Below, piece by piece: positions 18,083 to 37,522 of a stretch of DNA of 48,434 nucleotides. The notes beneath the pieces are model-generated. The model made no database searches, was not told where the DNA came from, and saw only the letters and a list, made by a program, of their open reading frames with translations. The position numbers were made by a program, and so were the translations under genes. The stretch comes from Sedimenticola sp. (GTDB lineage: Bacteria; Pseudomonadota; Gammaproteobacteria; Chromatiales; Chromatiaceae), in NCBI GenBank assembly GCA_026989135.1, contig JALSJZ010000133.1, forward strand, positions 1-48,434, written 5' to 3'. Position 1 is the first letter of the stretch, and every line of letters starts with the position of its first letter.

Positions 18083-18098
18083 TTTGACGCAGGTCAAA
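18083..18098 (+). promoter_or_regulatory. FNR/DNR-type operator upstream of nosZ
   Basis: A perfect 16-base palindrome, TTTGAC-GCAG-GTCAAA, matches the TTGAY-N4-RTCAA pattern bound by FNR, ANR and DNR/NNR regulators. It lies about 270 bases before the nosZ start. A weak -10-like hexamer TATTAG (18117-18122) is 29 bases from the palindrome centre, near the spacing expected for class II activation. This suggests nos is induced by low oxygen and/or nitric oxide. Bases 17886-18366 otherwise hold no convincing gene. Confidence 0.75.
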
Positions 18099-20235: not shown

Positions 20236-20255
20236 TACAATCTGGCAACGCCTAA

Positions 20256-20291
20256 ATGCAGCCCCTTCTTCTTCGGAAGAAGGGGCTGCAT
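20256..20291 (+). terminator. Strong hairpin after nosZ with UUCG tetraloop
   Basis: A perfect 16-bp stem (20256-20271 with 20276-20291; arm ATGCAGCCCCTTCTTC) is closed by a C(TTCG)G tetraloop. No T tract follows, so it is a poor classical terminator. It more likely stabilises the nosZ mRNA 3' end and attenuates transcription into nosR. Confidence 0.8.
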
Positions 20292-20400
20292 CACATTAGA
20301 ATATCAGCAAATACTAAAATTGCGGGTAGCAATTTAGCTCAAATTCCCTTAGTATTCCGCTTGGTTAATTTCAGGTTATTTGAGACAGATCTCTACCCAC

Positions 20401-22638: not shown

Positions 22639-23987
22639 TCAGTCTGTCTCTCTCCCATCAATCGAAATCACGTTTTAATAATGCCACACTGACCAGCCTC
22701 AGCCCAAGCAGACTGGTCAGCATGCTCTTATGTCTGCTGCTCTTTTTCACTGACGCTGCTCTTGCTGCTGATCTTCAGGTTCCCAGCAGGCAGTTTCCCA
22801 CTATTAGTGACGCCATCAGCGCCGCCCGCAACGGTGACAGCATCCACCTTGCCCCCGGTGTTTTTCAAGAGAACATTACGTTTGATAAAGCACTCACGCT
22901 ACTTGGCAGCCCGAACAACAGGTCCATTGTTGATGGCTCAGGCAAAGGTACGGTTATCACTATAACCAGCCCAAATGTCCATATCTCTGGGGTAACGGTA
23001 CGCAATAGCGGTGACATTATTGAAGATTCAGATGCCTGTATCTATGCGACCAAAAAGGCCACCAATATAAAACTGGATGGCAATTCGCTCACTCAATGCG
23101 CCTTTGGCATCTGGATCAATGGCAGCCACAACCCCCTGGTGGCCAACAACACCGTTACGGGCTATCAAAAAAAACTCATCTCTGACCGTGGCAACGGCAT
23201 CCATCTCTGGAACATCCAGAACGGGCTGATCAAGGGAAACCGGGTATTTGGGGTGCGTGATGGCATCTATCTCTCAAATACCAGCCGGTCATCCATTGAA
23301 GATAATGTCATGGATTCCGTGCGCTTCGGCATCCACTACATGTATAACGACAACAACCGGGTTACCGGCAATACTACCTGCAACTCCACGGTTGGACAGG
23401 CGATGATGTTCTCAAAACGGCTGGTCATCAATAATAACGCCATGATCAACAACAAAGACCACGGCATGCTGCTGCGCGCCATCTATGACTCTAAAATTGA
23501 CGGCAACATCGCCTACGGTAATAACAGGGGCATCTTCATCAACGACTCCGACTTCAACGAATTCAGAGACAACTGGGTCGAAAACAATGCCATTGGCATC
23601 GCCGTCATGGCTGGCGCTGAAAACACCAGGATGGTTGGCAACAACTTTATATCAAACCCGGTACAGGTGCTCTTCTCCTGGCGCTTTTCACTCTATTGGA
23701 ACGATGAGAAGCAAGGCAACTACTGGAGCGACTATCTTGGCTGGGACTACGATAGCGATGGGATAGGCGACAGGATATACTACGCCTCAAACCGGATGGA
23801 TCACCTGATGCATCGCCACCCAAAGATGCGGCTGCTTGCACTGAGCCCGGTTATTCAGCTTTTACAATCCCTTGAGACCCGCTTTCCCGTACTTCGGTCG
23901 GCCAGTGTTATTGATAAAAAACCCGCTATGTACCCTACAACAGCAACCCCCAGCCAGATCACTGCCCCTGAAAAAGCATGCCTCTAA
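22635..23987 (+). CDS. nosD: NosD, periplasmic copper-cluster maturation protein
   Basis: NosD works with the NosFY transporter to assemble the CuZ cluster of NosZ. The 450-residue protein has an N-terminal signal peptide (LVSMLLCLLLFFTDAALA). A right-handed beta-helix of the CASH/parallel-repeat type follows, shown by repeated N-x-x-x-G-N and GI-type turns (VFGVRDGIYLSNTS, FGIHYMYND, DHGMLLRAIYDS). The NosD-typical segment FSLYWNDEKQGNYWSDYLGWD is near residue 350. The start is TTG overlapping the nosR stop (TTGA), suggesting coupling. An internal ATG at 22722 would give a very short signal peptide. Confidence 0.94.
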   Translation: MISLSLSHQSKSRFNNATLTSLSPSRLVSMLLCLLLFFTDAALAADLQVPSRQFPTISDAISAARNGDSIHLAPGVFQENITFDKALTLLGSPNNRSIVDGSGKGTVITITSPNVHISGVTVRNSGDIIEDSDACIYATKKATNIKLDGNSLTQCAFGIWINGSHNPLVANNTVTGYQKKLISDRGNGIHLWNIQNGLIKGNRVFGVRDGIYLSNTSRSSIEDNVMDSVRFGIHYMYNDNNRVTGNTTCNSTVGQAMMFSKRLVINNNAMINNKDHGMLLRAIYDSKIDGNIAYGNNRGIFINDSDFNEFRDNWVENNAIGIAVMAGAENTRMVGNNFISNPVQVLFSWRFSLYWNDEKQGNYWSDYLGWDYDSDGIGDRIYYASNRMDHLMHRHPKMRLLALSPVIQLLQSLETRFPVLRSASVIDKKPAMYPTTATPSQITAPEKACL

Positions 23988-24955
23988 AGATGCCACAGAG
24001 ACGAATAATAAACCACGGCCAGGGTGGAGGGGTAATCCTCTCTCTCTCTAGGATTCGTAAAGGCTTCCCCGGCAAAGAGGTATTAAAATCCATTGACCTG
24101 CAGGTTGCCCCCGGGCAGCTGGTAGCACTGGTTGGCAACAACGGTCAGGGCAAAACAACGCTGATGAAGTTGGTTCTCGGCCTGCTGGCACCTGATGCAG
24201 GCAAGATTCTGATCAATGGCAAAACCGTCGCTGCCACGCGAACCACCAGCCAAAAGGCGCTCTTTGGTTATCTGCCAGAGACCACTGCTTTTTACCCCAA
24301 CCTGACTGGCCAGGAGACGTTAAACTATCTCTCCTCTCTCAAGCAGGGGGAGCACTCCAGGGTTGCAGAGGCACTTGCAATTGTCGGTTTGCAGCATGCC
24401 GCGAAACAGCGGGTTAAAACCTACTCCAAGGGGATGAAGCAACGCCTTGGGCTGGCTCAGGCGCTATTGGGTGATCCAAAACTGCTGCTGCTCGATGAGC
24501 CAACCAATGGACTGGATCCTTCTGGCATCCACGAATTTTACCAGATCCTTGAGCAACTCAAGGGTGAAGGCGTTGCTATATTAATGTCCAGCCATCTGCT
24601 GGCCGAGATTGAACCCCGATCAGATGCCCTGGCACTGCTTAAAGATGGCATCATCAGCGCCTATGGCACAGTTGCTGAACTCATCAACGATGCCGAGCTG
24701 CCCAGCATTATTAAATTTCAAAAAGGCCAAAATTATAATCAACAGGCCTTGGATCAAATTTTGCAGCAACACACCACCGAGAAGAGATATATTGAGCAGA
24801 CAGAGACCTTTGTGCTCAGCTGTCACCCAAGCCACAAACAGGCACTGCTATTGGCACTGCTCACAACCGACAATCTGGTCGCAAAACTTATTGTTAACGA
24901 TCCCGGTCTTGAAGAGCTGTTTCTTCAGCTGAACAGCGGCCTGAAAATCACCTGA
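23978..24955 (+). CDS. nosF: NosF, ABC transporter ATPase for NosZ maturation
   Basis: The cytoplasmic ATPase partner of NosY. Walker A GNNGQGKTT is at residues 53-61, the ABC signature YSKGMKQRLGLAQAL is in the middle, Walker B LLLLDEPTNGLDP follows, and the H-loop is in SSHLLAEIE. At 325 residues it is slightly longer than simple ABC ATPases because of a C-terminal extension of about 90 residues, which is normal for NosF. It overlaps the end of nosD by 10 bases. A second possible ATG lies four codons in. Confidence 0.95.
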   Translation: MPLKMPQRRIINHGQGGGVILSLSRIRKGFPGKEVLKSIDLQVAPGQLVALVGNNGQGKTTLMKLVLGLLAPDAGKILINGKTVAATRTTSQKALFGYLPETTAFYPNLTGQETLNYLSSLKQGEHSRVAEALAIVGLQHAAKQRVKTYSKGMKQRLGLAQALLGDPKLLLLDEPTNGLDPSGIHEFYQILEQLKGEGVAILMSSHLLAEIEPRSDALALLKDGIISAYGTVAELINDAELPSIIKFQKGQNYNQQALDQILQQHTTEKRYIEQTETFVLSCHPSHKQALLLALLTTDNLVAKLIVNDPGLEELFLQLNSGLKIT

Positions 24956-24965
24956 CACCCAATTA

Positions 24966-25781
24966 ATGTCCACACTCACCATCTTACTTGCCATCGCACG
25001 AAAAGAGTTCATTGATCACCTGCGCAATGGCTGGATCATTGCCGTTGGCCTGGCCTTTGCCATCTTCTCACTCCTTATCACCTTTGTTGGCTTTGGCTTT
25101 ACCGGCTCTGTTGGTATTGGGCAGGAACAGAGCACACTCTTCAGCCTGATCAACCTGGTGATCTACCTCGTCCCACTGCTGGGACTGCTGCTAAGCTATG
25201 ACGGCATAGCGGGTGAACATGAACGCGGCACCCTTGACCTGTTAAGAAGTTATCCCTTCAATACCACTCTTTTGCTCTATGGCAAATGGCTTGGGTTGTT
25301 TCTGGTGCTTACAGCAACCTTGATCGTCGGATTGACCGCACCAGCGGCTATCTCTATTTACAGCGGACACACCCTGCAAGCCTGGACGCTGCTGCTCATA
25401 ACCTCAGTCTGGATCGGAGCCATCTTCATCTCCATCGCCATCATGTTTTCTGTCTTGATTCTGGATCGGGGAAAACTGATCGCCATCGCCATTGGCATCT
25501 GGCTGCTGTTTGTCGTACTGTTTGATCTTGGCGTTATCGGCATACTGGTCGCCACAGAGGGCGACGTTCCGATGGGCCTGGTGAATCTTCTCTTTTACCT
25601 GAACCCCGCCGCACTCTATCGGCTTCTCTCCATTGACCTTATGATGGACGACGCAATGATCACACAACTCGGGCTGATGGGGCAGATCCCTCCAACACCG
25701 GCACTTTTTGCAGCCATTACCGCCTGGACGATCATACCCGCAGCCATCGCCGGATGGCGCATCAGCACCTTAGGCAAATAG
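24966..25781 (+). CDS. nosY: NosY, ABC transporter permease for NosZ maturation
   Basis: A 271-residue integral membrane protein with about six hydrophobic segments, of the ABC-2 permease type. The motif RKEFIDHLRNGWII near the N-terminus and YDGIAGEHERGTLDLLRSYP around residue 78 are characteristic of NosY. With NosF it forms the transporter that works with NosD to deliver a sulfur-containing species for CuZ. The gene follows nosF by 10 bases. Confidence 0.95.
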   Translation: MSTLTILLAIARKEFIDHLRNGWIIAVGLAFAIFSLLITFVGFGFTGSVGIGQEQSTLFSLINLVIYLVPLLGLLLSYDGIAGEHERGTLDLLRSYPFNTTLLLYGKWLGLFLVLTATLIVGLTAPAAISIYSGHTLQAWTLLLITSVWIGAIFISIAIMFSVLILDRGKLIAIAIGIWLLFVVLFDLGVIGILVATEGDVPMGLVNLLFYLNPAALYRLLSIDLMMDDAMITQLGLMGQIPPTPALFAAITAWTIIPAAIAGWRISTLGK

Positions 25782-25808
25782 AACCGGACAAAAAGACGAG
25801 ACAAGAAG

Positions 25809-26381
25809 ATGAATAGATACCCCCTTGCTTTATTTTTATCACTGACACTGGCGCTCTCTTTCGGTTGTAGTGAAGATAGCAATAACAGCACCACAAGCAC
25901 GCCCAGGGATCTGACGCGGGATGCCGTATGCATGCTGGATGGCATGATACTGCTTGATCACCCCGGCCCCAAAGGGCAGGTCATCTTCAAAAACGGTGAG
26001 CCACACTTTTTTTGTGATACCAAAGGACTCTTCTCTGCGCTCTACGATCCCAACTACAAAACAAAAATCAAGCAGGCCTTTGTTCAGGATTTCAGCAAGC
26101 GCAGCTGGGGCAGCTATAACGACCGCTGGATTGAGGTAGAGCAGGCTTTTTTTGTAATGGACAGCAACCGACTTGGCGCTATGGGTCCTACCCTGGCCAC
26201 CTTTAGCCTCCGTTCAGATGCCGAAAACTTCGCAAAAGAGTTTGGCGGCTCAGTGCTGGCCTTTAATGAACTCGATGAAGAGAAATTTGAAGCCTATCAG
26301 GCACGCATTCGCCAACAGCTGCGAGACAGCATTGGCGCTATCTCAGCACCTGATAGCGAAGAGGCGCACCATCACCATTAG
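25809..26381 (+). CDS. nosL: NosL, copper-chaperone lipoprotein
   Basis: NosL delivers Cu(I) for NosZ maturation. The 190-residue precursor has a lipoprotein signal with the lipobox LSFGC at about residues 16-20. The conserved copper-binding segment CMLDGMILLDHPGPKGQ is near residues 42-60, followed by the FCDTKGLF strand. The last residues are EEAHHHH, a natural four-histidine tail that could bind metal. It is the last gene of the nosZRDFYL cluster and lies 27 bases after nosY. It converges on a minus-strand gene with only 10 bases between the stops and no terminator visible. Confidence 0.93.
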   Translation: MNRYPLALFLSLTLALSFGCSEDSNNSTTSTPRDLTRDAVCMLDGMILLDHPGPKGQVIFKNGEPHFFCDTKGLFSALYDPNYKTKIKQAFVQDFSKRSWGSYNDRWIEVEQAFFVMDSNRLGAMGPTLATFSLRSDAENFAKEFGGSVLAFNELDEEKFEAYQARIRQQLRDSIGAISAPDSEEAHHHH

Positions 26382-26976: not shown

Positions 26977-28032
26977 CTACTCGCCACTCACTTGGGGTTT
27001 GGAAGCCATCGTCAGCTGATGCAATACGAAAAGTGCCGCCGTAAACAGCAAAAGCCCTCCTCCCTGGTGCGCCGAGGCCAAAGATATAGGGACATGAAGC
27101 AACAAAGTCGAAATACCCAGTGTGACTTGAAGCAGCAGTGCTCCCAGCAGGAGATAGATCCCCACGCGCACCCTTGAACTTAATTCAAATTTCCTTGAAC
27201 GCCACCAGAATATCGGAATCAGAAAAAACAGCAGCGTCGCCAAAACACGATGGTCAAACTGAACTGTTGCGATATTTTCAAAAAAGTTTGTCCATAGCGG
27301 CACAAGCCGGAAAATGCCATCAGGTATAAGTTGCCCATTCATCAGCGGAAAGGTGTTATAGGCAAACCCGGCTCTTAACCCTGCCACGAAAGCACCTGAC
27401 AGCAACGTAATAAAAATCAAGCCCGTAACAACACGTGAGAAGCCCAAAATCTGCCTGGCACCACCAGAATCACGCCCTGGCTCACGCTGAAAGAAGAGCC
27501 CCAGCGCCACCCAGAATATATAGCCATAAACCACCACCGCCAAACCAAAATGCGCAGCCAGGCGATATTGACTTACCTGCGGATTATCCACCAACCCACT
27601 TTTAACCATGTACCACCCCAGCAACCCTTGTAACCCACCCAGCACAAACATTGCGACCAGTTTAGGCGAGAGCTTACGGCTGACTTGGCGTGTAGCGATA
27701 AAAAAAAGCATGGGAAGAAGGAAGAGTATACCGATAAGCCGACCCAGGATACGGTGCAGATACTCGAACCAGAAAATTGACTTAAACTCCTCCAGGTTGA
27801 AATGGGAGTTTACCTTCTTATACTGTGGCGAGTGCTGATACAGCTCAAAAACCGCATTCCACTCCGCCTGATTCATTGGCGGAAACACGCCGGTAATTGG
27901 CTCCCATTTTACCATAGAGAGCCCGGAGCCTGTCAGGCGCGTAACGCCTCCGAGTATGACCATGGCAAAGATTGCGACACAACAGACGAATAACCAGATC
28001 GCAACAGGTCGCTGGTTTGTGGTAGATTTCAT
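26977..28032 (-). CDS. ctaA: Heme A synthase (CtaA/COX15)
   Basis: The enzyme oxidises the C8 methyl of heme O to a formyl group, producing heme A. This 351-residue protein has about eight membrane helices in two homologous halves. Visible signatures are GGVTRLTGSGLSMVKWEPITG near the N-terminus, the heme-ligand motif FWFEYLHRILGRLIG, and QFDHRVLATLL and SLASAHQGGGLLLF in the second half. It is divergent from the heme-copper oxidase cluster; the 409-base intergenic region contains an FNR-type box. Confidence 0.96.
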   Translation of the reverse strand: MKSTTNQRPVAIWLFVCCVAIFAMVILGGVTRLTGSGLSMVKWEPITGVFPPMNQAEWNAVFELYQHSPQYKKVNSHFNLEEFKSIFWFEYLHRILGRLIGILFLLPMLFFIATRQVSRKLSPKLVAMFVLGGLQGLLGWYMVKSGLVDNPQVSQYRLAAHFGLAVVVYGYIFWVALGLFFQREPGRDSGGARQILGFSRVVTGLIFITLLSGAFVAGLRAGFAYNTFPLMNGQLIPDGIFRLVPLWTNFFENIATVQFDHRVLATLLFFLIPIFWWRSRKFELSSRVRVGIYLLLGALLLQVTLGISTLLLHVPISLASAHQGGGLLLFTAALFVLHQLTMASKPQVSGE

Positions 28033-28161: not shown

Positions 28162-28210
28162 TTGACACAGATCAAAAGCAAACAGTGCGACCGATGATCT
28201 AATGCCGATG
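28162..28210 (+). promoter_or_regulatory. FNR-type operator and -10 element upstream of the heme-copper oxidase cluster
   Basis: TTGAC-ACAG-ATCAA (28162-28175) fits the FNR/ANR/DNR consensus. The hexamer TCTAAT (28198-28203, five of six bases of TATAAT) is centred 32 bases downstream, which is the geometry of a class II FNR-activated promoter with the box at -41.5 and a start near 28210. The leader to the first gene would be about 230 bases. This suggests induction under low oxygen or nitric oxide. The divergent ctaA gene could share the site. Confidence 0.72.
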
Positions 28211-28441: not shown

Positions 28442-28615
28442 ATGGCTGATGAAAACAACACCGACGAGAGAGAGGAAGATGAAAACATCTCTCCGTGGCA
28501 ACAAATGATCGACAATCCATTTCTACTGCTTTTCATTGGCGTAGCAATGCCTACTGTGTTCTACACACTGTGGGGAGTCATGGAGATTGCTTCGATTCCT
28601 GTCGCTCCATACTAG
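28442..28615 (+). CDS. Small one-helix membrane protein, subunit IIa-like
   Basis: A 57-residue protein: a charged N-terminus (DENNTDEREEDEN), then one membrane helix with LLFIGVAMPTVFYTLWGVMEI. The start ATG is supported by AGGAGA seven bases upstream. It is the first gene of the cluster, 52 bases before subunit II. Small single-helix proteins in this position occur with B-family (ba3-like) heme-copper oxidases as subunit IIa. The assignment rests on position and shape. Confidence 0.8.
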   Translation: MADENNTDEREEDENISPWQQMIDNPFLLLFIGVAMPTVFYTLWGVMEIASIPVAPY

Positions 28616-28667: not shown

Positions 28668-29210
28668 ATGACTTCATTATTGCCTCCAGCCCAGAAGAAC
28701 TGGTGGGCCGTGCCGGTAGGCCGCCAGGAGATCATCTGGATTGCAATTGCGCTGGTTTGGTGTCTGATTATGTTTTTCATGATGCCTTTGTGGCACATGT
28801 ATGGTAACCAGAACATCCCTACCGAAGCATACAAGGTCACACCGGCCAAGTATCAAGCAAAAGTTAACGAGATGATCGAGAAGTACAAGGTTCGTGAAGA
28901 GACGGCCATGAAAATACCCGTGGTTGCGCCACCTGATGGTGCTGATGTCTACCTGTTGGCGCGCCTTTGGCAGTGGTATCCAATGCTGGAACTCAAGAAA
29001 GACGTAACCTACCGTCTTCACCTGAACTCCATCGACTGGAACCATGGCTTTTCCTTGCAGCCTGTTAATATCAATATTCAGGTCGTCCCGGGCTATGAAA
29101 TGGTCCTGAACATAACGCCTAACAAGGCCGGTGAGTACACGATTGTCTGCAACGAATATTGCGGCATCATGCACCACGCCATGCTGGGTAAGATCTGGGT
29201 GAAGGAGTAA
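28668..29210 (+). CDS. Heme-copper oxidase subunit II with CuA site
   Basis: A 180-residue membrane-anchored cupredoxin. One helix at about residues 22-43 anchors it; the periplasmic domain carries a complete CuA site: His126 (DWNHGF), then Cys161, Glu163, Cys165, His169 and Met172 in VCNEYCGIMHHAM. It would accept electrons from cytochrome c or a copper protein and pass them to subunit I. The single helix and short length are typical of the B family. It lies six bases before subunit I. If the complex is an sNOR, this is the NorS-like subunit. Confidence 0.93.
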   Translation: MTSLLPPAQKNWWAVPVGRQEIIWIAIALVWCLIMFFMMPLWHMYGNQNIPTEAYKVTPAKYQAKVNEMIEKYKVREETAMKIPVVAPPDGADVYLLARLWQWYPMLELKKDVTYRLHLNSIDWNHGFSLQPVNINIQVVPGYEMVLNITPNKAGEYTIVCNEYCGIMHHAMLGKIWVKE

Positions 29211-29216
29211 TTAAAA

Positions 29217-30953
29217 ATGGCACAATTTAGACAATGTCCTGATACTGGACTATTTTTCCACAAAGAAGCAGAGAACCTGATGAAGGCTAACGCCGTTGCA
29301 GGTGTTGTCTGCCTGCTGATTGGCGGCATCCTTGCGCTGTTGGTTGTACTGACTCGCTGGCCTGCAATTCACCTGCTACCGGCTGATAGTTTCTACATGG
29401 TATTGACCGCTCACGGCGTCTGTGCGCTGATCTTCTGGATGATCTTCTTCGAGATGGCGATCCTCTACTTTGCAGGCTCCACCCTGCTGCGAAGCAGACT
29501 GGCGACGCCGCGCTGGGCATGGGCCGGCTTTGTGATGATGGTCATTGGTGCTGTCATGACACTGGCTGCTATCTTCGGCGGCAAGTCAAGCGTGATGATG
29601 ACTTCATACGTGCCTATGCGGGCAGAACCACACTTCTATCTGGGTCTGGTTATCTTCGCTGTTGGTGCATTGATCGGTTGCTTTGTCTACCTGGGTACCC
29701 TGGTCGTGGCAAAGAACGAGAAGACCTATGAAGGCTCTGTACCACTGGTCACCTTTGGTGCCACAACAGCCTGCATCATCGCCATCTTCACCATCGCCTC
29801 TGGCGCTGAGATTCTGATACCGACCTACCTGTGGTCCATTGGCTACATCAGCCATATCGATCCGGCCATGTACCGTCTTATCTGGTGGGCACTGGGTCAC
29901 TCCTCACAGCAGATTAACGTTGCTGCTCACGTAGCAGTCTGGTATCTGATTGCTGGCGTTATCTTTGGCGCCCGCCCAATGTCGGAGAAGGTCAGTCGAG
30001 CTGCCTATCTGCTCTACATCTTCTTCCTGCAGCTGGCCTCAGCTCATCACCTGTTGACCGACCCAGGCCTCAGTGTTGAGTGGAAGCTCTTCAATACCTC
30101 TTACGCCATGTATCTGGCAGTATTGGCCTCTATGATCCACGGTCTGACCGTTCCTGGTGCCATCGAGGTTGCTCAACGCAAGAAAGGGCTGACCAATGGC
30201 GCTTTCGAATGGCTGCGCAAGGCGCCCTGGGGTAACCCGGTCTTCTCCAGTATGTTTATCTCTCTGGTAGGCTTCGGCTTCCTGGGCGGTATCTCTGGTG
30301 TGGTCATGGGTACTGAGCAGATCAGCATCATCATCCACAACACCATCTATGTACCGGGTCACTTCCACGCTACTGTGGTAATTGGTACTACTATGGCCTG
30401 GATGGGGTTGACCTACCTGCTGATTCCGGTGCTGTTCCGTCGCAAGATGATCTTTCCACAGGCAGCTAAACTGCAGCCGTACATCTTCGCCCTCGGAATG
30501 TCCATGGTAGCTGTTTTCCATATGGCTGCTGGCACCCTGGGTGTTGCACGTCGCCACTGGGACATGGGTTTTGCAGGCAATCCGCTGGGCTTCGAATACC
30601 CAGCTACGGCCTATCTGCTGATGGGTATTGCCGGCATCGGCGGTGTCATCGGTGTTATTGGTGGTGCGCTGTTCTGCGTCATCGCCGTTGGCTCCCTGGT
30701 ATTTGGCGAGAAGCTACAGAAAGAGGCAGGCCTGTTGCAAAGCTTTGGTGTTCCTCTTGCAGATTCAGCCTATACCAACGAGAAACCTGCACGCCTGCCT
30801 ATGGCTCCAGCTGAAGCTGTAGAGGCGGATCACGGCGAATCCGGCTTTGAGGCTCCAGGAACCTTTATCCTGGCTATGGTCTTGCTGGTAAGCTTCGTGA
30901 TTTACTACTTCATTAACTGGAAGTATCTGTCTGAAGTTTGGGGTATCTCTTAA
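29217..30953 (+). CDS. Heme-copper oxidase superfamily subunit I, B-family-like, lacking the active-site tyrosine (possible nitric oxide reductase)
   Basis: A 578-residue protein with about 13 membrane helices. All metal ligands are present: low-spin heme His66 and His384, high-spin heme His382 (GHFHATVV), CuB His228, His277 and His278 (ASAHHLLTDPG). In A- and B-family oxygen reductases His228 would begin H-P-x-x-Y, with the Tyr cross-linked to it. Here the sequence is HSSQQ, so position +4 is Gln232. The C-family tyrosine position, six residues before the HH pair, is Leu271. Oxygen reduction of the usual kind is therefore doubtful. The neighbouring SCO gene and FNR-type promoter resemble the norSY-senC (sNOR) arrangement of ammonia oxidisers. 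A strong terminator follows. Confidence 0.9.
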   Translation: MAQFRQCPDTGLFFHKEAENLMKANAVAGVVCLLIGGILALLVVLTRWPAIHLLPADSFYMVLTAHGVCALIFWMIFFEMAILYFAGSTLLRSRLATPRWAWAGFVMMVIGAVMTLAAIFGGKSSVMMTSYVPMRAEPHFYLGLVIFAVGALIGCFVYLGTLVVAKNEKTYEGSVPLVTFGATTACIIAIFTIASGAEILIPTYLWSIGYISHIDPAMYRLIWWALGHSSQQINVAAHVAVWYLIAGVIFGARPMSEKVSRAAYLLYIFFLQLASAHHLLTDPGLSVEWKLFNTSYAMYLAVLASMIHGLTVPGAIEVAQRKKGLTNGAFEWLRKAPWGNPVFSSMFISLVGFGFLGGISGVVMGTEQISIIIHNTIYVPGHFHATVVIGTTMAWMGLTYLLIPVLFRRKMIFPQAAKLQPYIFALGMSMVAVFHMAAGTLGVARRHWDMGFAGNPLGFEYPATAYLLMGIAGIGGVIGVIGGALFCVIAVGSLVFGEKLQKEAGLLQSFGVPLADSAYTNEKPARLPMAPAEAVEADHGESGFEAPGTFILAMVLLVSFVIYYFINWKYLSEVWGIS

Positions 30954-30965
30954 GCGACCCTGCGA

Positions 30966-31003
30966 ACGGGGCGGATCCAGTTTGGATTCGCCTCGTTTTT
31001 TTT
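30966..31003 (+). terminator. Rho-independent terminator after oxidase subunit I
   Basis: A 13-bp stem with two G-T pairs (30966-30978 with 30984-30996; arm ACGGGGCGGATCC) encloses a five-base loop and is followed by eight T residues. It should separate the oxidase transcript from ctaB, which then needs its own promoter in 31004-31102. Confidence 0.92.
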
Positions 31004-31102: not shown

Positions 31103-31963
31103 ATGGTCAAGCAACTTATTAATCTATTAAAGCTACGTATCGGCATTGTAATGTCCGTTACTGCCGTTGTTGCAATGATCGTCACTCCTGGTCAGCCTGT
31201 GGCAGGCTGGGAAGTCGCAATCCTCGCATTGACTGTCCTTATTGCCGCTGGCGGAGCCGGTGCGTTCAATCAGTATTATGAGATTGATCTCGACATTAAG
31301 ATGAAGCGGACACGAGGACGCCCATTCATCAATGGTGATTTTCAGCATAACCGTCTCTGGCTCTTTTTTATCTCTGGCCTGGTACTGGCCGGAGTAGCAG
31401 GTGCTGGCTTTGCACTAAACGGCTTAACCGCCCTGTTCATCTTTCTTGGCGCCTTCTTTTACGCCATTGTTTATACCGTCTTACTCAAGCGTCGGACATG
31501 GCTCAACATCGTTATCGGTGGCGCGTCCGGAAGCTTTGCTGTACTGGCTGGAGCAGCCGTAGCCGACCCGAGTGGCATCGGCCCCATTCCGGCACTGCTC
31601 GCCGTTGTCCTTTTTCTTTGGACACCCTCACATTTTTGGAGCTTGGCCATCGCCCAGCATGACGATTACGCTGCTGCCGGCGTGCCTATGCTGCCGGTTG
31701 TTGTTGGCGATCAAATTGCTGCCAAGGCCGTGCTTTTTAATACACTCGCCTTGGTAACCGTATCCATTCTGCCCTTCTTTTTTGGGCTGAGCTGGATCTA
31801 TCTTTTTGGTGCCGTGACAGGCGGCGGCTACTTCATCTACCGTAATATACAGCTTGTAAATGATCCATCTCGCAAAGTGGCCATGAGCAGTTTCTTTGCC
31901 TCCCTTGTCCAGCTCGGTCTTTTACTAGTCTGTGCTACAGTTGATGTCAGCCTGCTCGGCTGA
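31103..31963 (+). CDS. ctaB: Heme O synthase (protoheme IX farnesyltransferase)
   Basis: This UbiA-family prenyltransferase adds a farnesyl group to heme B, making heme O, the substrate of the CtaA encoded at 26977. The 286-residue protein has nine predicted helices. The first aspartate-rich motif is NQYYEIDLDIKMKRTRGRP at about residues 55-73, and the second loop includes WTPSHFWSLAIAQHDDYAAAGVPM. Both are diagnostic for CtaB/CyoE. It is followed 74 bases later by a SCO gene. Its presence implies that at least one oxidase in this cell contains heme A or O. Confidence 0.97.
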   Translation: MVKQLINLLKLRIGIVMSVTAVVAMIVTPGQPVAGWEVAILALTVLIAAGGAGAFNQYYEIDLDIKMKRTRGRPFINGDFQHNRLWLFFISGLVLAGVAGAGFALNGLTALFIFLGAFFYAIVYTVLLKRRTWLNIVIGGASGSFAVLAGAAVADPSGIGPIPALLAVVLFLWTPSHFWSLAIAQHDDYAAAGVPMLPVVVGDQIAAKAVLFNTLALVTVSILPFFFGLSWIYLFGAVTGGGYFIYRNIQLVNDPSRKVAMSSFFASLVQLGLLLVCATVDVSLLG

Positions 31964-32037: not shown

Positions 32038-32877
32038 ATGCAATCTATCAAGCTTATCACTGGTGTACTCTTTCTTGCCCTGAGCCTCTTAGCCTCTGTA
32101 CAGGCAGAGCCGCCTACGATCACCCCACAACCCGGCAGCTCGAGCTCAACTACTCCCGAGTTTGACTATAGAGAGTCATTGGAGACCAGCCAGCAGGCCA
32201 TCGGCAACAAGCTCAGCAACCACAGATTTATGTCCAGTACGGAAGGTGTTCTGTTCCTGCAGGAGCTGCAAGGCAAGCCTCTCGTCATCAGCATGGTCTA
32301 CACCAGCTGCTTTCACACCTGCCCCATGACTACTCGCCATCTGGCCAAGGTGGTTAAAAAAGCCAAAGATGCCTTAGGCGAACAGAGCTTTAATGTTGCC
32401 CTGATTGGTTTTGATGTCAAGAATGACACCCCTAGCGCAATGCGCTATTTTGGACGCCAAAATGATATTAATGGTGATGGGTGGAAGCTGCTCAGCACCG
32501 ATCAGGCGACCAGAGACCTGCTCATCAAAGAGCTGGGATTCATCTATTTCCCATCAATACGTGGGTTTGATCATCTGGTACAGGCCACTGTGGTTGATGC
32601 CGACGGCATTGTTTATCGGCAGGTGTATGGGGAGGTATTTGATACCCCGCTTCTCATAGAGCCCCTAAAAGATCTCGTGTTCGGGCGCACCTCATCGACA
32701 GACACCCTCATCGACGATCTAGTGAACCGGGTAAAGCTATTTTGCACCACATATGACCCGATCCGAGACGCCTATATCTTTGACTACTCCCTATTTGTTG
32801 GGATTTTTGTTGGTTTGTCCATACTCATCCCCATGCTGATCTTCATTATGCGTGAATGGAAACGCACTGCACGATAA
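32038..32877 (+). CDS. SCO1/SenC-family copper chaperone with C-terminal membrane anchor
   Basis: A 279-residue thioredoxin-fold protein. A signal peptide (to about VQAE, residue 23) precedes the domain. The copper-binding motif is Cys91 and Cys95 in TSCFHTCPM, with partner His179 in GFDHLVQ. Unlike most SCO proteins it has a membrane helix near the C-terminus (about 252-270). SCO proteins insert copper into CuA of subunit II. Being the second gene after subunits II and I, it probably serves that complex, as senC does beside norSY. Confidence 0.92.
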   Translation: MQSIKLITGVLFLALSLLASVQAEPPTITPQPGSSSSTTPEFDYRESLETSQQAIGNKLSNHRFMSSTEGVLFLQELQGKPLVISMVYTSCFHTCPMTTRHLAKVVKKAKDALGEQSFNVALIGFDVKNDTPSAMRYFGRQNDINGDGWKLLSTDQATRDLLIKELGFIYFPSIRGFDHLVQATVVDADGIVYRQVYGEVFDTPLLIEPLKDLVFGRTSSTDTLIDDLVNRVKLFCTTYDPIRDAYIFDYSLFVGIFVGLSILIPMLIFIMREWKRTAR

Positions 32878-33218: not shown

Positions 33219-34787
33219 TTGAAATCAAGCGCTAACCCCATTAAACGCGTTTACCTCTATCTGGAAGAGTGGTTTAACCTCTCCTTTGGCAAAGAGTGGA
33301 ACCCCCTCTACCACCTTGGGCCACTCACCATCTTTTTCTTTTGGATAGCGCTCATCTCTGGCCTCTATCTCTACATCTTCTTCAATACCACCGTTGAACA
33401 TGCCCATGCATCACTGGAAAAGATTGTTCATGGTCATGTACTGGGGATTGGCAGCCTTATGCGCAGCCTGCATCGCTATGCTTCTGATGCAGCCATTGTG
33501 ACCATCCTGCTGCATGTTTTCAGGGAATTCTCGCAGGATCGCTACCGAGGCACGCGCTGGTACTCCTGGTTCACCGGCATCCCCACACTCTGGATGGTTG
33601 TACTGCTTGGCATAACAGGATACTGGATGGTATGGGATGAACTGGCACTCTATATCTCAATGAGCGCCTCTCACCTGCTGGATGCCTTGCCCGTCTTCTC
33701 TGATTCAATGGCTCGAAACTTTTTACCTGGCAACCTGAGCGACCGCTTCTCCACGCTGCTGGCCTTCCTGCATCTGCTTGGGCAGCCCATGTTTTTGGTA
33801 TTCATGCTCTGGTTCCATGTCAAACGCCTGACCCATGTTGAGATCAGTGCCCCAAAAGGGCTGGCCATCGGCTGCCTTATTGCGCTGACCGCACTCTCCA
33901 TCTATATGCCTGCTCTTAGCCATGCCCCAGTCAACCTTTCAAAGGTACCCACTGAGATCCATCTGGACTGGTTTTATCTGAATATTTTTCCTCTTTTGCA
34001 GTATTGGTCTCCTGGTGAGATCTGGCTGCTGGTCGCTGGCGTCACCACCTTTATGCTCTTCATGCCCTGGTTGCCAAAGAAGAATGAGGGTCTCCCTGCT
34101 GTTGTCAATCTGGAACACTGCAATGGCTGCGGTCAATGCGTTTTCGACTGCCCCTTTGATGCAATCAGCCTGCAAGCCCGTACCGATGGTGCCAAATGGA
34201 AGAGTGAGGTCATCGTGCACCCTGAGCTATGTGCCGCCTGTGGCATCTGTACTGGATCATGTCCCTCATCTACCCCATTCCGCAAGAAGAAGGAAGGGGG
34301 CAGCCTGAAAACCGGTATCGACATGCCAGAGCTTACGCTGGATACATTCAAGCAACAGACCGATGAGGTGCTGGGCAAATTAACCGGCGACAATAAGATC
34401 GTAGCCTTCGGCTGTAAGCATGGGTACGATATTGAGGCCTTCAGTGCAGCCAATGTAGGCACTGTGCATCTCTTTTGCACCGGCATGATGCCCGCCTCTC
34501 TTGCAGAGTACGCCCTCAAGAATGGTGCCGACGGAGTGGTCGTCTCCGGCTGCCGCTCTGGCGACTGTTACTACCGATTCGGCAACCACTGGATGGATCT
34601 CAGAATACATGGTGAGCGACAGCCAGCACTCCGCCCCAGAGTCGATAGAGAGCGGATCAAAATCCTTGGAGGCGCTGAGGTTGATGGCAAAAAACTGCAC
34701 CAGCAGTTTGCGCTCTTTCATGACTCCCTTGCACAAAAAAACACCACACCCTCCCCAACTACTGCCAAGGAGGTGAACCATGACTAA
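33219..34787 (+). CDS. Cytochrome b / two-[4Fe-4S] ferredoxin / MvhD-domain fusion protein
   Basis: A 522-residue fusion. Residues 1-285 form a membrane cytochrome b N-terminal domain with two histidine pairs on facing helices (His85/His99 and His185/His200), the bis-heme b pattern of cytochrome bc/b6. Residues 300-350 form a ferredoxin with Cys301, 304, 307, 311 and Cys338, 341, 344, 348. Residues 392-500 resemble MvhD, the iron-sulfur subunit of methyl-viologen hydrogenase that contacts heterodisulfide reductase: Cys399, Cys420 and the SGCRSGDCYYRFGN motif (Cys445, Cys450). It should move electrons between a cytoplasmic iron-sulfur donor and membrane hemes. The start is TTG with GAGGA eight bases upstream. 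It overlaps the next gene by eight bases. Confidence 0.88.
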   Translation: MKSSANPIKRVYLYLEEWFNLSFGKEWNPLYHLGPLTIFFFWIALISGLYLYIFFNTTVEHAHASLEKIVHGHVLGIGSLMRSLHRYASDAAIVTILLHVFREFSQDRYRGTRWYSWFTGIPTLWMVVLLGITGYWMVWDELALYISMSASHLLDALPVFSDSMARNFLPGNLSDRFSTLLAFLHLLGQPMFLVFMLWFHVKRLTHVEISAPKGLAIGCLIALTALSIYMPALSHAPVNLSKVPTEIHLDWFYLNIFPLLQYWSPGEIWLLVAGVTTFMLFMPWLPKKNEGLPAVVNLEHCNGCGQCVFDCPFDAISLQARTDGAKWKSEVIVHPELCAACGICTGSCPSSTPFRKKKEGGSLKTGIDMPELTLDTFKQQTDEVLGKLTGDNKIVAFGCKHGYDIEAFSAANVGTVHLFCTGMMPASLAEYALKNGADGVVVSGCRSGDCYYRFGNHWMDLRIHGERQPALRPRVDRERIKILGGAEVDGKKLHQQFALFHDSLAQKNTTPSPTTAKEVNHD

Positions 34788-35289
34788 GATTCCAGCCGTG
34801 CGCTACCTTTTACAGGCCTTTAATCTGTTTGTTTTCATGGCACTGATTGCTGCCTTCTCTGCTGGCCCTTCCGTCAGGCAACTGGACGATGGGCTGGCTG
34901 TGATCACACTGGCCTTCGGCCATGCTGGCCAGCCTGTGCGCGCCTGCCATGTGCGCACCCCTGATGAGCTGGCAGCACTGGCACCCAATATGCGCGCACC
35001 AATGGATTGCCCCAGGGAACGCTCCACCATCAAGGTTGAACTTGAAATGGATGGCAAAATCATCCTTGATCTCACCATCCCCCCCCCAGGGGCATTCAAG
35101 GATCAAGGCGTGGATGTTTATCAGAATGTCGAGGTTCCTGTGGGTCGGCATGAATTCACCGTTCGGATGAATGATAATGCACTGGTAGATGGCTACACCT
35201 ACACCGATAGCTATACAGTGGATCTGGCGCCTGCCCAGCTCCTTTTTATTGACTTCAATCAACGCATTGGCGGATTTACCTTTAATTAA
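34780..35289 (+). CDS. Membrane-anchored periplasmic protein of unknown function
   Basis: I do not recognise this 169-residue protein. One hydrophobic helix (about residues 8-27) is followed by a domain that looks rich in beta strands (IKVELEMDGKIILDLTIPPPG, EVPVGRHEFTVRMND). Two cysteines occur, in RACHVRT and MDCPRE. There is no CuA or heme-binding CxxCH motif. It takes the place a subunit II would have, between the cytochrome b fusion and a heme-copper oxidase-like subunit I. A perfect AAGGAGG ribosome-binding site precedes the ATG. Its stop directly abuts the next start, so co-translation is likely. Confidence 0.8.
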   Translation: MTKIPAVRYLLQAFNLFVFMALIAAFSAGPSVRQLDDGLAVITLAFGHAGQPVRACHVRTPDELAALAPNMRAPMDCPRERSTIKVELEMDGKIILDLTIPPPGAFKDQGVDVYQNVEVPVGRHEFTVRMNDNALVDGYTYTDSYTVDLAPAQLLFIDFNQRIGGFTFN

Positions 35290-36657
35290 ATGGCTGAATA
35301 TTACTCTCTTGATATATCGGCGGATCGTACGATCCATCGGCAAACTACTGCGTGGCTTATCCTTGCCCTTGCCTCACTGGTCATCGGCGGCCTGTTCGTC
35401 ATCCTTATCGTTCTCTCCCGAACGCCCGGCATTCAAGATATCATCCCCTGGGTAGATTTTTTCAAGACTGCCCTCGTGATACATGTCGATATGACAGTGC
35501 TGGTCTGGTTTCTTGCCTTTGCCGGTGTCTTCTGGAGCCTAAACAACAATGGCAGCTGTCTCTCCTGCGGTTGGGTGCCTATCTTTCTGGCTGCAACGGG
35601 CATGCTTGGGATTGCGGCATCCCCCTTCCTTGGGGCGGGAGACCCGCTGATGAACAACTATGTTCCTGTGCTGCAAGACCCCATATTTTTTGTAGCTCTG
35701 GGCATCTTTGGGCTGGGCTTTACGCTACAGATCTTAAATGGACTGATCCACTCTAAACCTGTGGGCAGGTTCATGGATGGCAGCGCGGCACTCCGCTTTG
35801 GACTCTACACCGCGCTGATTGCCGCACTTCTCGCCATGATGTCGATTGGCTGGTCCTACAGCATGATGCCAGCAGAGATAGAGGGGCAGCGCTATTATGA
35901 GCTACTGTTCTGGGGCGGCGGTCACGTCATTCAGTTCACACACACACAGCTGATGTTTGTTGCCTGGCTATGGCTGGCCGGAGCCTCCGGCATTGCCGTC
36001 AAAGCCAACCCGCGGCTGATTCTCATCCTCTTTGCATTGGGTACAATACCGGTTCTGTTTGCACCTCTCATCTACCTCACCTATCCGGTAGATGACCCAG
36101 GCTATGCCATCTCCTTCACCTGGCTTATGAAGTACGGAGGCGGCCTCGCAGCAGTACCCTTGGGGCTTATACTTGTCATCTCTATTATTACCAGCAGCAA
36201 GGTCTCTGACCTGTACCGTGCCGAGCGCTCTGCATTGATCTTCTCCATACTGCTGTTTGGTACGGGCGGGATCATCGGGTTTATGATTACCGGCAGTAAT
36301 GTACGTGTCCCTGCGCACTACCATGGCTCAATCATTGGCGTCACCTTGGCATTTATGGGCATTACTTATTACCTCTTGCCACGCCTGGGGTTTCGCAAAC
36401 CTATGGGAAAGTGGGCACTGCGCCAGCCCGCAATCTATGGCACAGGGCAGATGATCTGGGTGCTCGCCATGGCCTATACCGGTGGGCACGGTGTTCAGCG
36501 CAAGACAGCGGGGGCCGCTCAAGGGCTACAGTCTGTAGGCGAGCATATCGCCATGGGATTGATGGGAATCGGCGGAATTATCGCCATCACCGGTGGGGTC
36601 ATCTATCTTGTTGTGGTCTATAAGGCGATGCGCCCTGAAAAGAAGCTAACCACTTAA
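35290..36657 (+). CDS. Heme-copper oxidase-like subunit I lacking the paired CuB histidines
   Basis: A 455-residue protein with about 12 membrane helices that aligns by eye with the B-like subunit I at 29217. The low-spin heme ligands (His65, His345) and high-spin heme ligand (His343, in VPAHYHGSIIG) are present. One CuB-type histidine, His212, is in WGGGHVIQFTH, with Phe216 at the tyrosine position. The helix that normally carries the HH pair reads APLIYLTYPVDDPG and has no histidine. The metal site must be different or absent. A CLSC pair is at residues 90-93. NO reduction by a divergent NOR family, or a non-enzymatic cytochrome role, are both possible. A bidirectional terminator follows. 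Confidence 0.85.
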   Translation: MAEYYSLDISADRTIHRQTTAWLILALASLVIGGLFVILIVLSRTPGIQDIIPWVDFFKTALVIHVDMTVLVWFLAFAGVFWSLNNNGSCLSCGWVPIFLAATGMLGIAASPFLGAGDPLMNNYVPVLQDPIFFVALGIFGLGFTLQILNGLIHSKPVGRFMDGSAALRFGLYTALIAALLAMMSIGWSYSMMPAEIEGQRYYELLFWGGGHVIQFTHTQLMFVAWLWLAGASGIAVKANPRLILILFALGTIPVLFAPLIYLTYPVDDPGYAISFTWLMKYGGGLAAVPLGLILVISIITSSKVSDLYRAERSALIFSILLFGTGGIIGFMITGSNVRVPAHYHGSIIGVTLAFMGITYYLLPRLGFRKPMGKWALRQPAIYGTGQMIWVLAMAYTGGHGVQRKTAGAAQGLQSVGEHIAMGLMGIGGIIAITGGVIYLVVVYKAMRPEKKLTT

Positions 36658-36662
36658 AAAAT

Positions 36663-36694
36663 AAAGAGCCATGCAAAGATGCATGGCTCTTTTT
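36663..36694. terminator. Bidirectional rho-independent terminator
   Basis: A perfect 13-bp stem AAAGAGCCATGCA / TGCATGGCTCTTT (36663-36675 with 36680-36692) with an AAGA loop. T-rich sequence follows on both strands, so it can end both the plus-strand oxidase-like operon and the minus-strand small membrane protein operon. Confidence 0.92.
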
Positions 36695-37081: not shown

Positions 37082-37522
37082 TTACGACAGACCAGCCTGG
37101 GATGGATAGAGATGAAAAGCCATGAGATAGACAGCAACACCGCTTACGCAGACATAGATCCAGATTGGAAACGTCCACCGGGCAATGCGCCTATGGCGCT
37201 CGTAGCGGCCCCTCAACGCAAGAAATGCCGTGCTGATCACCATCGGCACAATGAGTCCGGCAAGGATGATATGAGTGGCAAGGATTGTGAAATAGAAGGG
37301 ACGCACCCCGCCATCCCCCGCAAACTTCACATTGCCCACCTGACTGTGGTAGGTCAGATATGAGACCATAAACAGCGCCGACACCACCAATGCCGCTATC
37401 ATAAACTGTCGATGCGCCTCGTGGTTTTCCCGACGAATATTATAGTAAGCGACGCTGATCAGACAGATCGTTGTGACATTCAAGCCCGCCTGCAGGTGGG
37501 GCAGTACCGGGATGATCTCCAC
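37082..37522 (-). CDS. DUF420-family membrane protein
   Basis: A 146-residue protein with four to five helices. The pattern LPHLQAGLNVTT, RRENHEAHRQFMIAAL, TYHSQVG and FYFTILATHIILA matches DUF420, with the histidines that are conserved in the family. In Gram-positive bacteria a DUF420 protein (CtaM) is needed for activity of heme A-containing oxidases. The start is GTG, overlapping the upstream TAG stop by one base (TAGTG), which implies translational coupling. With SCO next to it, a role in maturing a heme-copper enzyme is likely. Confidence 0.88.
   Translation of the reverse strand: MEIIPVLPHLQAGLNVTTICLISVAYYNIRRENHEAHRQFMIAALVVSALFMVSYLTYHSQVGNVKFAGDGGVRPFYFTILATHIILAGLIVPMVISTAFLALRGRYERHRRIARWTFPIWIYVCVSGVAVYLMAFHLYPSQAGLS

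Follow-up and report, generated by a model that had tools for sequence, protein, structure and literature searches.

What is the function of a membrane cytochrome b that carries iron-sulfur and MvhD-type domains and is encoded together with an anchored protein and an oxidase-like protein? This question is raised by three genes at positions 33219-36657 of a 48,434-nucleotide stretch of DNA from Sedimenticola sp. (class Gammaproteobacteria; GenBank assembly GCA_026989135.1, contig JALSJZ010000133.1), the whole of which is called the window here. We refer to the genes as gene 1 (cytochrome b-FeS-MvhD), gene 2 (anch) and gene 3 (COX1L), and to genes 1 and 2 as the pair. The original prediction, made from the sequence of the window, treated the three products as one respiratory complex, in which electrons would pass through the iron-sulfur domains and b hemes to the oxidase-like subunit. 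We found that the pair nearly always accompanies eNOR, a type of nitric oxide (NO) reductase (NOR), in the Pseudomonadota sampled. We consider it an even chance that genes 1 and 2 encode accessory proteins dedicated to the proteobacterial eNOR, which would act together as an electron wire across the membrane.

The heme-copper enzyme upstream of the locus

Upstream of the three genes, the window contains the nos genes (18367-26381), followed by ctaA and an oxidase-like gene couple; narGHJI is located downstream. The original prediction stated that no CuA subunit exists in the operon. This is true of the three genes themselves, but a CuA subunit and a heme-copper reductase are encoded at 28668-30953. 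The CuA site of this neighbour is complete, and the genes lie on the same strand within a conserved cluster, so an electron route that bypasses CuA is not supported.

In subunit I of this enzyme, the three CuB and three heme histidines (H66, H228, H277, H278, H382 and H384) were invariant in 34 sequences. Helix VI reads GHSSQQ, and both Q231 and Q232 were invariant in the same set. The nearest solved structures by sequence were ba3-type oxidases (7deg_A, 2.6e-54; Thermus ba3). In subunit II, the residues H126, C161, E163, C165, H169 and M172 were invariant in 19 sequences. The consulted passages describe eNOR as a NOR related to B-family oxidases (PMC11388526), and its hallmark as a glutamine where oxygen reductases have the active-site tyrosine (PMC8756737). 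With the eNOR of these passages (PMC8756737, PMC11388526), the window subunit I shares the Gln at the Tyr position, the six histidines and a cupredoxin subunit II encoded upstream. Because of the Gln for Tyr, the six His, the CuA subunit II upstream and the ba3-type nearest structures, the enzyme is a good match to eNOR. NO reductase activity is predicted for it, with genomic support from the cytochrome d1-family genes described below.

Linkage and co-occurrence of the pair with eNOR

A scan of the genome collection with gene 2 revealed 285 relatives, and the counts over 80 loci below use the best 80 of these 285. A gene 1 match was present in 79 of the 80 loci (the FeS-MvhD part in 77) and a gene 3 match in 63. 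The conserved linkage on which the original prediction depended was thus found, and genes 1 and 2 are far from being usually unlinked. The close packing was also as described: genes 1 and 2 share 8 bases in the window, and gene 3 begins one base past the gene 2 stop. The conserved order is eNOR, cyoE, SCO, cytochrome b-FeS-MvhD and anchored protein, with matches to SCO in 65 loci, to eNOR subunit I in 57, to cyoE in 54 and to subunit II in 51; contig ends nearby explain part of the missing matches. The same order through gene 2, without gene 3, was present on plasmid NZ_CP156080.1 of the alphaproteobacterium Defluviimonas, where the gene at the cyoE position is annotated as heme o synthase. 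On this plasmid, a hemerythrin-family gene (L168:14523-14927) lies directly 3' of gene 2. Records of Curvibacter sp. PAE-UM and Defluviimonas sp. SAOS-178 are among those with the locus.

Two genome samples were analysed, one of 369 genomes of the class and one of 200 genomes of the phylum Pseudomonadota. Within the class sample, eNOR was found in 34 genomes, gene 2 in 35, gene 1 in 34 and gene 3 in 46. Genomes with eNOR also contained gene 2 in 33 cases (Fisher 1.5e-43), gene 1 in 33 (Fisher 8.5e-45) and gene 3 in 28 (Fisher 3.2e-24). Among 27 eNOR genomes of other classes, which were scored at looser cut-offs for all three genes, 26 contained gene 2, 26 gene 1 and 26 gene 3. When both samples were pooled, genes 1 and 2 were present in 59 of the 61 eNOR genomes and gene 3 in 54. 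In the two exceptions, the contig stops 18 bases past eNOR (G296) or just past SCO (G457). The original prediction had tied the module to nitrogen-oxide respiration, and its conservation with eNOR supports this.

The association was also evident from the gene 2 side. We followed up eight genomes from their gene 2 loci, of which five had a long locus without eNOR and two a short contig, while the eighth (L091) already had eNOR adjoining gene 2; eNOR was present in all eight. For the 33 class genomes with both eNOR and gene 2, the two were on the same strand and 2.4-4.4 kb apart in 26, on opposite strands and 13-16 kb apart in two, and on separate contigs in five. Where the pair is separated from eNOR, it can sit near cytochrome cd1 genes (0.4 kb in L181 and 7 kb in L185).

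It is conceivable that the role of genes 1 and 2 lies in general cytochrome biogenesis or in a different pathway, and that they are only hitchhiking in denitrification islands. This explanation gains something from a second, divergent gene 1 paralogue (51% identity), which lies without gene 2 at a contig end of the window's own genome. However, co-occurrence holds across separate contigs and long distances, and anch occurs in just two of 335 eNOR-less class genomes, both of which are incomplete (73% and 77%). We regard hitchhiking as most improbable.

Plasmid searches covered 72,556 plasmids, among which genes 1 and 2 were found on that of Defluviimonas only. Three inspected plasmids of Thermus and Thermomicrobium carry eNOR-like genes with the motif GHGAQQ, which show 42-43% identity across 99% of the query; what we state of these two genera concerns plasmid records. 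The plasmid eNOR records bear cytochrome c oxidase names. Whereas eNOR in the sampled Pseudomonadota goes with the cytochrome b-FeS-MvhD protein and anch, the Thermus and Thermomicrobium plasmid copies have no adjoining pair.

Redox sites of the pair

Gene 1 showed Pfam matches to Cytochrome_B (1.1e-16), to Fer4 (3.6e-10), with two 4Fe-4S stretches, and to FlpD/MvhD (2.8e-12; 47.2 bits against a cut-off of 22.3), in agreement with the predicted fusion of an MvhD domain to a membrane cytochrome b. The overall architecture comprises a b6-type cytochrome b, a subunit-IV-like tail, two 4Fe-4S sites and the MvhD/FlpD domain. For the ligand alignment, 95 loci were tried, and gene 1 rows were kept if they were long enough and contained the first Cys motif. 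The four b-heme histidines (H85, H99, H185 and H200) occurred in all 82 sequences of the alignment, including that of the window. The eight 4Fe-4S cysteines, the four MvhD cysteines and an Asp-Trp in the Qo loop were likewise kept in 82 of 82, although conservation of the first 4Fe-4S Cys motif is circular here, as it served as the row filter.

Comparison with known proteins revealed similarities as well as differences. As in cytochromes b6 and bc1, gene 1 has four b-heme histidines with b6-like spacing, a conserved Gly, a bis-His diheme arrangement and, at the place of the PEWY acid in the Qo loop, an Asp-Trp. Fused cytoplasmic 2x4Fe-4S and MvhD domains set gene 1 apart from the bc1 and b6f proteins. 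No Rieske protein or cytochrome c1/f was found among the annotated cluster genes of the window or the Defluviimonas record, to which this search was limited. The MvhD/FlpD domain resembles that of hydrogenase-Hdr complexes in scoring above the Pfam cut-off and in its four invariant cysteines, but differs in being fused to a membrane cytochrome b. Hdr or hydrogenase genes were absent among the annotated genes of the window, which are part of its genes. The paralogue in the window's own genome (L180:6177-7400, contig C188; about 51% identity) is cut by the contig end and has no gene 2 adjoining.

For gene 2, neither Pfam nor NCBIfam gave a match at E values up to 0.1. Searches with the anch family gave no match in NCBIfam or, by sequence, in the PDB, and Pfam gave two single-member matches at chance level; viral contigs contained no gene 2 relatives. 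C56, M71 and C77 were present in 95 of 95 gene 2 sequences and H48 in 93 of 95. The structure model was confident (mean predicted local distance difference test score, pLDDT, 93.3), and its best structural matches were generic beta-sandwiches, with 8jkv_A ("membrane proteins") at a Z-score of 9.6 and 2.6 Å over 93 residues and HGSNAT chains at Z-scores of 8.9-9.4.

Regulation and denitrification context

We searched the window for boxes that we take to be of the FNR/DNR type and found three, against 0.38 expected. The third, inside gene 2, is probably due to chance; the other two precede nosZ and the eNOR genes, and the matching boxes at these places suggest joint control. Across the loci, which are not all independent, subunit II had a box in the 650 bp before it in 32 of 51, as compared with 262 of 5000 random windows. 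For gene 1, 27 of 73 loci, or about a third, had one in the preceding 300 bp (105 of 5000 random windows). Of these 27 boxes, 21 lie 70-110 bp upstream, and one (L073) precedes the NAD(P)H-reductase paralogue instead of gene 1; long forms of this kind make up six of the 73 genes tested. The same box was found upstream of SCO in 0 of 60 loci, of eNOR subunit I in 0 of 51 and of gene 3 in 1 of 57, where SCO and eNOR subunit I are mostly preceded by coding sequence. Because the box occurs before gene 1 and is nearly absent before SCO, eNOR subunit I and gene 3, the pair often looks like a regulated unit of its own. Caution over a single transcript is also advised by a terminator-like hairpin at 30964-30998 and by the 341-base gap that precedes gene 1; such hairpins are at chance level in the region (9 found, 9.0 expected).

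Cytochrome d1-family genes (E <1e-100) were present in 31 of 34 eNOR genomes and in 9 of 34 chosen eNOR-less genomes, a difference whose p of 6.5e-8 is indicative only, since the controls were hand-picked (20 without eNOR taken from earlier lists, and 14 bearing COX1L). Two genomes with anch and without eNOR (G132 and G247) were left out of this count, and both carry cytochrome d1-family genes. The family, PF02239, covers NirS, NirF and NirN alike. In at least 13 of the 34 eNOR genomes, no more than 25 kb separate eNOR from a cytochrome d1-family gene. Such genes are also present in the genome of the window, which is 98.9% complete, and a heme-copper search at E 0.001 revealed only three genes in it, namely, CcoN, eNOR and COX1L. 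No NorB-type gene was found in this search, and eNOR is therefore the only candidate NOR among the heme-copper enzymes of this genome.

Possible functions of the pair

We infer the direction of the electron wire, its donor and its acceptor as follows. The MvhD and 4Fe-4S domains would exchange electrons with a carrier in the cytoplasm, or else with quinol at the sites of the cytochrome b, and would connect to two stacked b hemes across the membrane. The periplasm-facing anch would then pass electrons towards the CuA side of eNOR, which would reduce NO to N2O. Of the electron path in the original prediction, the part through the Fe-S domains and b hemes remains plausible, but the oxidase-like gene 3 is not supported as its end point. 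A second protein, a fusion of cytochrome b, 2Fe-2S and FAD/NAD(P)H reductase, is encoded next to the pair in 36 of the 80 loci, 31 of which bear betaproteobacterial titles; the fusion domains were checked in two. Its position points to NAD(P)H as one input, which would enter through the adjoining fusion in most loci with betaproteobacterial titles. Examples of this fusion are L069:7764-9746 and L080:11928-13820.

Several points weigh against the electron wire. CuA should accept electrons from cytochrome c, so the need for a special donor is not obvious, and the window has no exact box before gene 1. Additionally, the many assembly genes among the neighbours (ctaA, cyoE, SCO and DUF420) favour a role in maturation. 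DUF420 proteins include oxidase assembly factors. Accordingly, a possible but rather doubtful alternative is that genes 1 and 2 encode a system for the reductive maturation of eNOR, by analogy with CcoG/CcoH (FixG/FixH), the assembly pair of the cbb3 oxidase, which consists of a membrane Fe-S protein and a single-transmembrane (TM) periplasmic beta-domain protein. Cytoplasmic electrons would in that case reduce periplasmic Cu(II) or a disulfide (in SCO, CuA or C56/C77 of anch) for copper insertion.

The setting of the pair among cyoE, SCO, ctaA and DUF420 and the two invariant cysteines of anch are consistent with maturation. Genes 1 and 2 also recall ccoG-ccoH, in that the gene for a membrane Fe-S protein precedes that for a periplasmic beta-domain protein with one TM segment, close to a heme-copper enzyme. 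However, none of 51 anch proteins had a match to the FixH domain up to E 0.01, and gene 1, unlike CcoG/CcoH, is a diheme cytochrome b. Moreover, the pair is in some loci away from the assembly genes and close to cytochrome cd1 genes, and an FNR/DNR-type box often precedes it. Three Thermus and Thermomicrobium plasmid eNORs without an adjoining pair count against maturation and against the electron wire alike. Distance matrices gave a partial correlation between cytochrome b and SCO of 0.59 in 63 loci (0.60 between eNOR subunits I and II) and of 0.52 in 39 loci (0.72 between subunits I and II). These correlations did not separate the electron wire from maturation: the pooled 0.59 fits maturation, but the cytochrome b-SCO signal falls to 0.28-0.31 within each clade; there, cytochrome b-eNOR reached 0.51 in the gamma set and cytochrome b-anch 0.57 in the beta set.

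The same proteins could also be read as a Rieske-less, quinol-oxidising bifurcating complex, in which NO reduction would drive the formation of a low-potential reductant (NAD(P)H or ferredoxin). Here, anch would take the place of the Rieske protein, with H48, C56, M71 and C77 forming a copper or dithiol centre. One electron would reach the CuA of eNOR via anch, and the other would reach a cytoplasmic acceptor via the b hemes and the 4Fe-4S and MvhD domains, with the betaproteobacterial FAD/NAD(P)H-reductase fusion as the outlet. We consider such bifurcation unlikely.

The oxidase-like protein COX1L

Gene 3 matched COX1 at 4.6e-8 with 32.8 bits, just below the cut-off of 34.8. Its structure model (mean pLDDT 88.8; predicted template modelling score 0.91) matched an oxidase subunit I with a Z-score of 31.0 and 3.6 Å over 423 residues. 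Gene 3 thus shares with heme-copper oxidase subunit I the fold and the heme-ligand histidines, and the latter (H65 of helix II; H343 and H345 of the HxH in helix X) were present in 49 of 49 sequences. The gene 3 rows of the ligand alignment had been filtered on PAHYHG, which is circular there; the counts over 49 sequences are free of this filter.

In contrast to subunit I, the helix VII CuB pair is lost and the Tyr position is occupied by Phe. In particular, a gapless alignment to the ba3-type 7deg_A places the helix VII His pair at gene 3 positions 258-259, and no His was found at positions 250-264 in any of the 49 sequences. The window protein keeps only H212 of the three CuB/FeB-site histidines. 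A profile-profile alignment instead sets a later loop against the CuB pair; in that loop, 38 of 49 relatives have His 272, where the window has Tyr, and six of 49 have HH, so the window lacks the His pair either way. An altered metal or proton site involving His 272 is possible in the relatives other than the window. Position 216 aligns with eNOR Q232, where the active site has Tyr or Gln; 47 of 49 sequences have Phe there, and the remaining two Ile or Leu.

The distribution of gene 3 also differs from that of the pair. Of the 335 class genomes that lack an eNOR match, 18 contain gene 3, and 16 of these 18 lack anch. In the six loci where genes 1 and 2 do not adjoin gene 3, ctaA is no more than 0.2 kb away in six of six; one of these loci (L036) comes from G041, which has eNOR and the pair on another contig, and only G012 was shown to be without an eNOR match. 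In other classes, five of six loci have gene 3 within about 0.3 kb of ctaA, and in the gene 2 loci, ctaA lies within 3 kb of gene 3 in 10 of 61. COX1L near ctaA was observed in loci L030, L032-L036, L186, L187 and L189-L191, and all but L188 are within about 0.3 kb; in L191, COX1L follows the pair. The search for gene 3 on plasmids gave no match.

These results bear on the proposal that the three proteins form one complex with gene 3 as the terminal NO or O2 reductase. Such a complex would account for the overlapping and abutting genes and for the presence of gene 3 in so many gene 2 loci and eNOR genomes, and His 272 could be set against the CuB pair in most relatives. Nevertheless, there is no His at 250-264, the active-site Tyr/Gln is replaced, gene 3 occurs in genomes without eNOR or anch, ctaA adjoins it where genes 1 and 2 do not, and a canonical reductase is encoded upstream. 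The proposal appears highly improbable, and the terminal reductase role was set aside owing to the missing helix VII pair and the occurrence of gene 3 away from genes 1 and 2. Because it lacks this pair and is found with assembly genes, ctaA above all, gene 3 is probably no terminal enzyme. We think it more likely to be a diheme paralogue with a link to biogenesis than an enzyme that reduces NO or O2, and it is possibly a companion of ctaA, mostly apart from the other two genes.

Gene neighbourhood

The features of the region are collected in Table 1. The 57-residue open reading frame (ORF) that precedes CuA subunit II (DNPFLLLF...PTVFYTLWGVMEI) had no match in a Pfam search, and similar ORFs were found in L038, L042, L057 and L168.

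Table 1. Features of the window around the pair, with strand and basis of assignment.
Feature	Position	Strand	Basis or remark
FNR/DNR-type box TTGACGCAGGTCAA before nosZ	18084..18097	.	motif match
ctaA (COX15-CtaA), divergent from the eNOR genes	26977..28032	-	PF02628 1e-111; match in 26/80 gene 2 loci
FNR/DNR-type box TTGACACAGATCAA, ctaA/eNOR intergenic region	28162..28175	.	motif match
57-aa single-TM ORF, probable small eNOR subunit (IIa-like)	28442..28615	+	predicted role
eNOR subunit II, complete CuA ligands	28668..29210	+	cupredoxin-type; immediately upstream of subunit I
eNOR subunit I, six His ligands, Gln for active-site Tyr	29217..30953	+	invariant in 34 sequences
Heme O synthase, cyoE	31103..31963	+	UbiA 9.5e-49
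SCO-type protein	32038..32877	+	SCO1-SenC 1.6e-9; conserved position
Gene 1, cytochrome b6-type + 2x[4Fe-4S] + MvhD/FlpD fusion	33219..34787	+	TTG start, 522 aa; Pfam matches
Gene 2 (anch), one TM + periplasmic beta-sandwich	34780..35289	+	169 aa; structure model, alignment
Gene 3 (COX1L), heme-copper-oxidase fold without helix VII CuB pair	35290..36657	+	455 aa
Terminator-like hairpin between COX1L and convergent gene	36663..36692	.	
DUF420 gene, convergent with gene 3	37082..37522	-	5.1e-42; match in 30/80 gene 2 loci

Relation to known systems and significance

The original prediction considered that the three genes might already belong to a characterised NOR or oxidase family. This holds by half: the neighbouring reductase fits the known eNOR, but the accessory set is undescribed in the consulted passages. 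Neither the pair nor gene 3 is described in those of PMC8756737, PMC11388526, PMC10734462, PMC13274419, PMC12569097, PMC10359470 and PMC4914600; Murali et al. 2024 (PNAS) was outside this scope. Within these passages, eNOR itself is thus known, and the partner pair and the gene 2 family are without description. According to the passages of PMC8756737, eNOR genes are often mislabelled as cytochrome c oxidases. The apparently obligate partner pair would be a clean genetic marker for proteobacterial eNOR.

Nitric oxide reductases produce the greenhouse gas N2O. The pair suggests that eNOR is served by an electron route or a maturation path that has gone unrecognised, and anch defines a family. 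Where eNOR is the only NOR, we predict that denitrification should fail without the pair.

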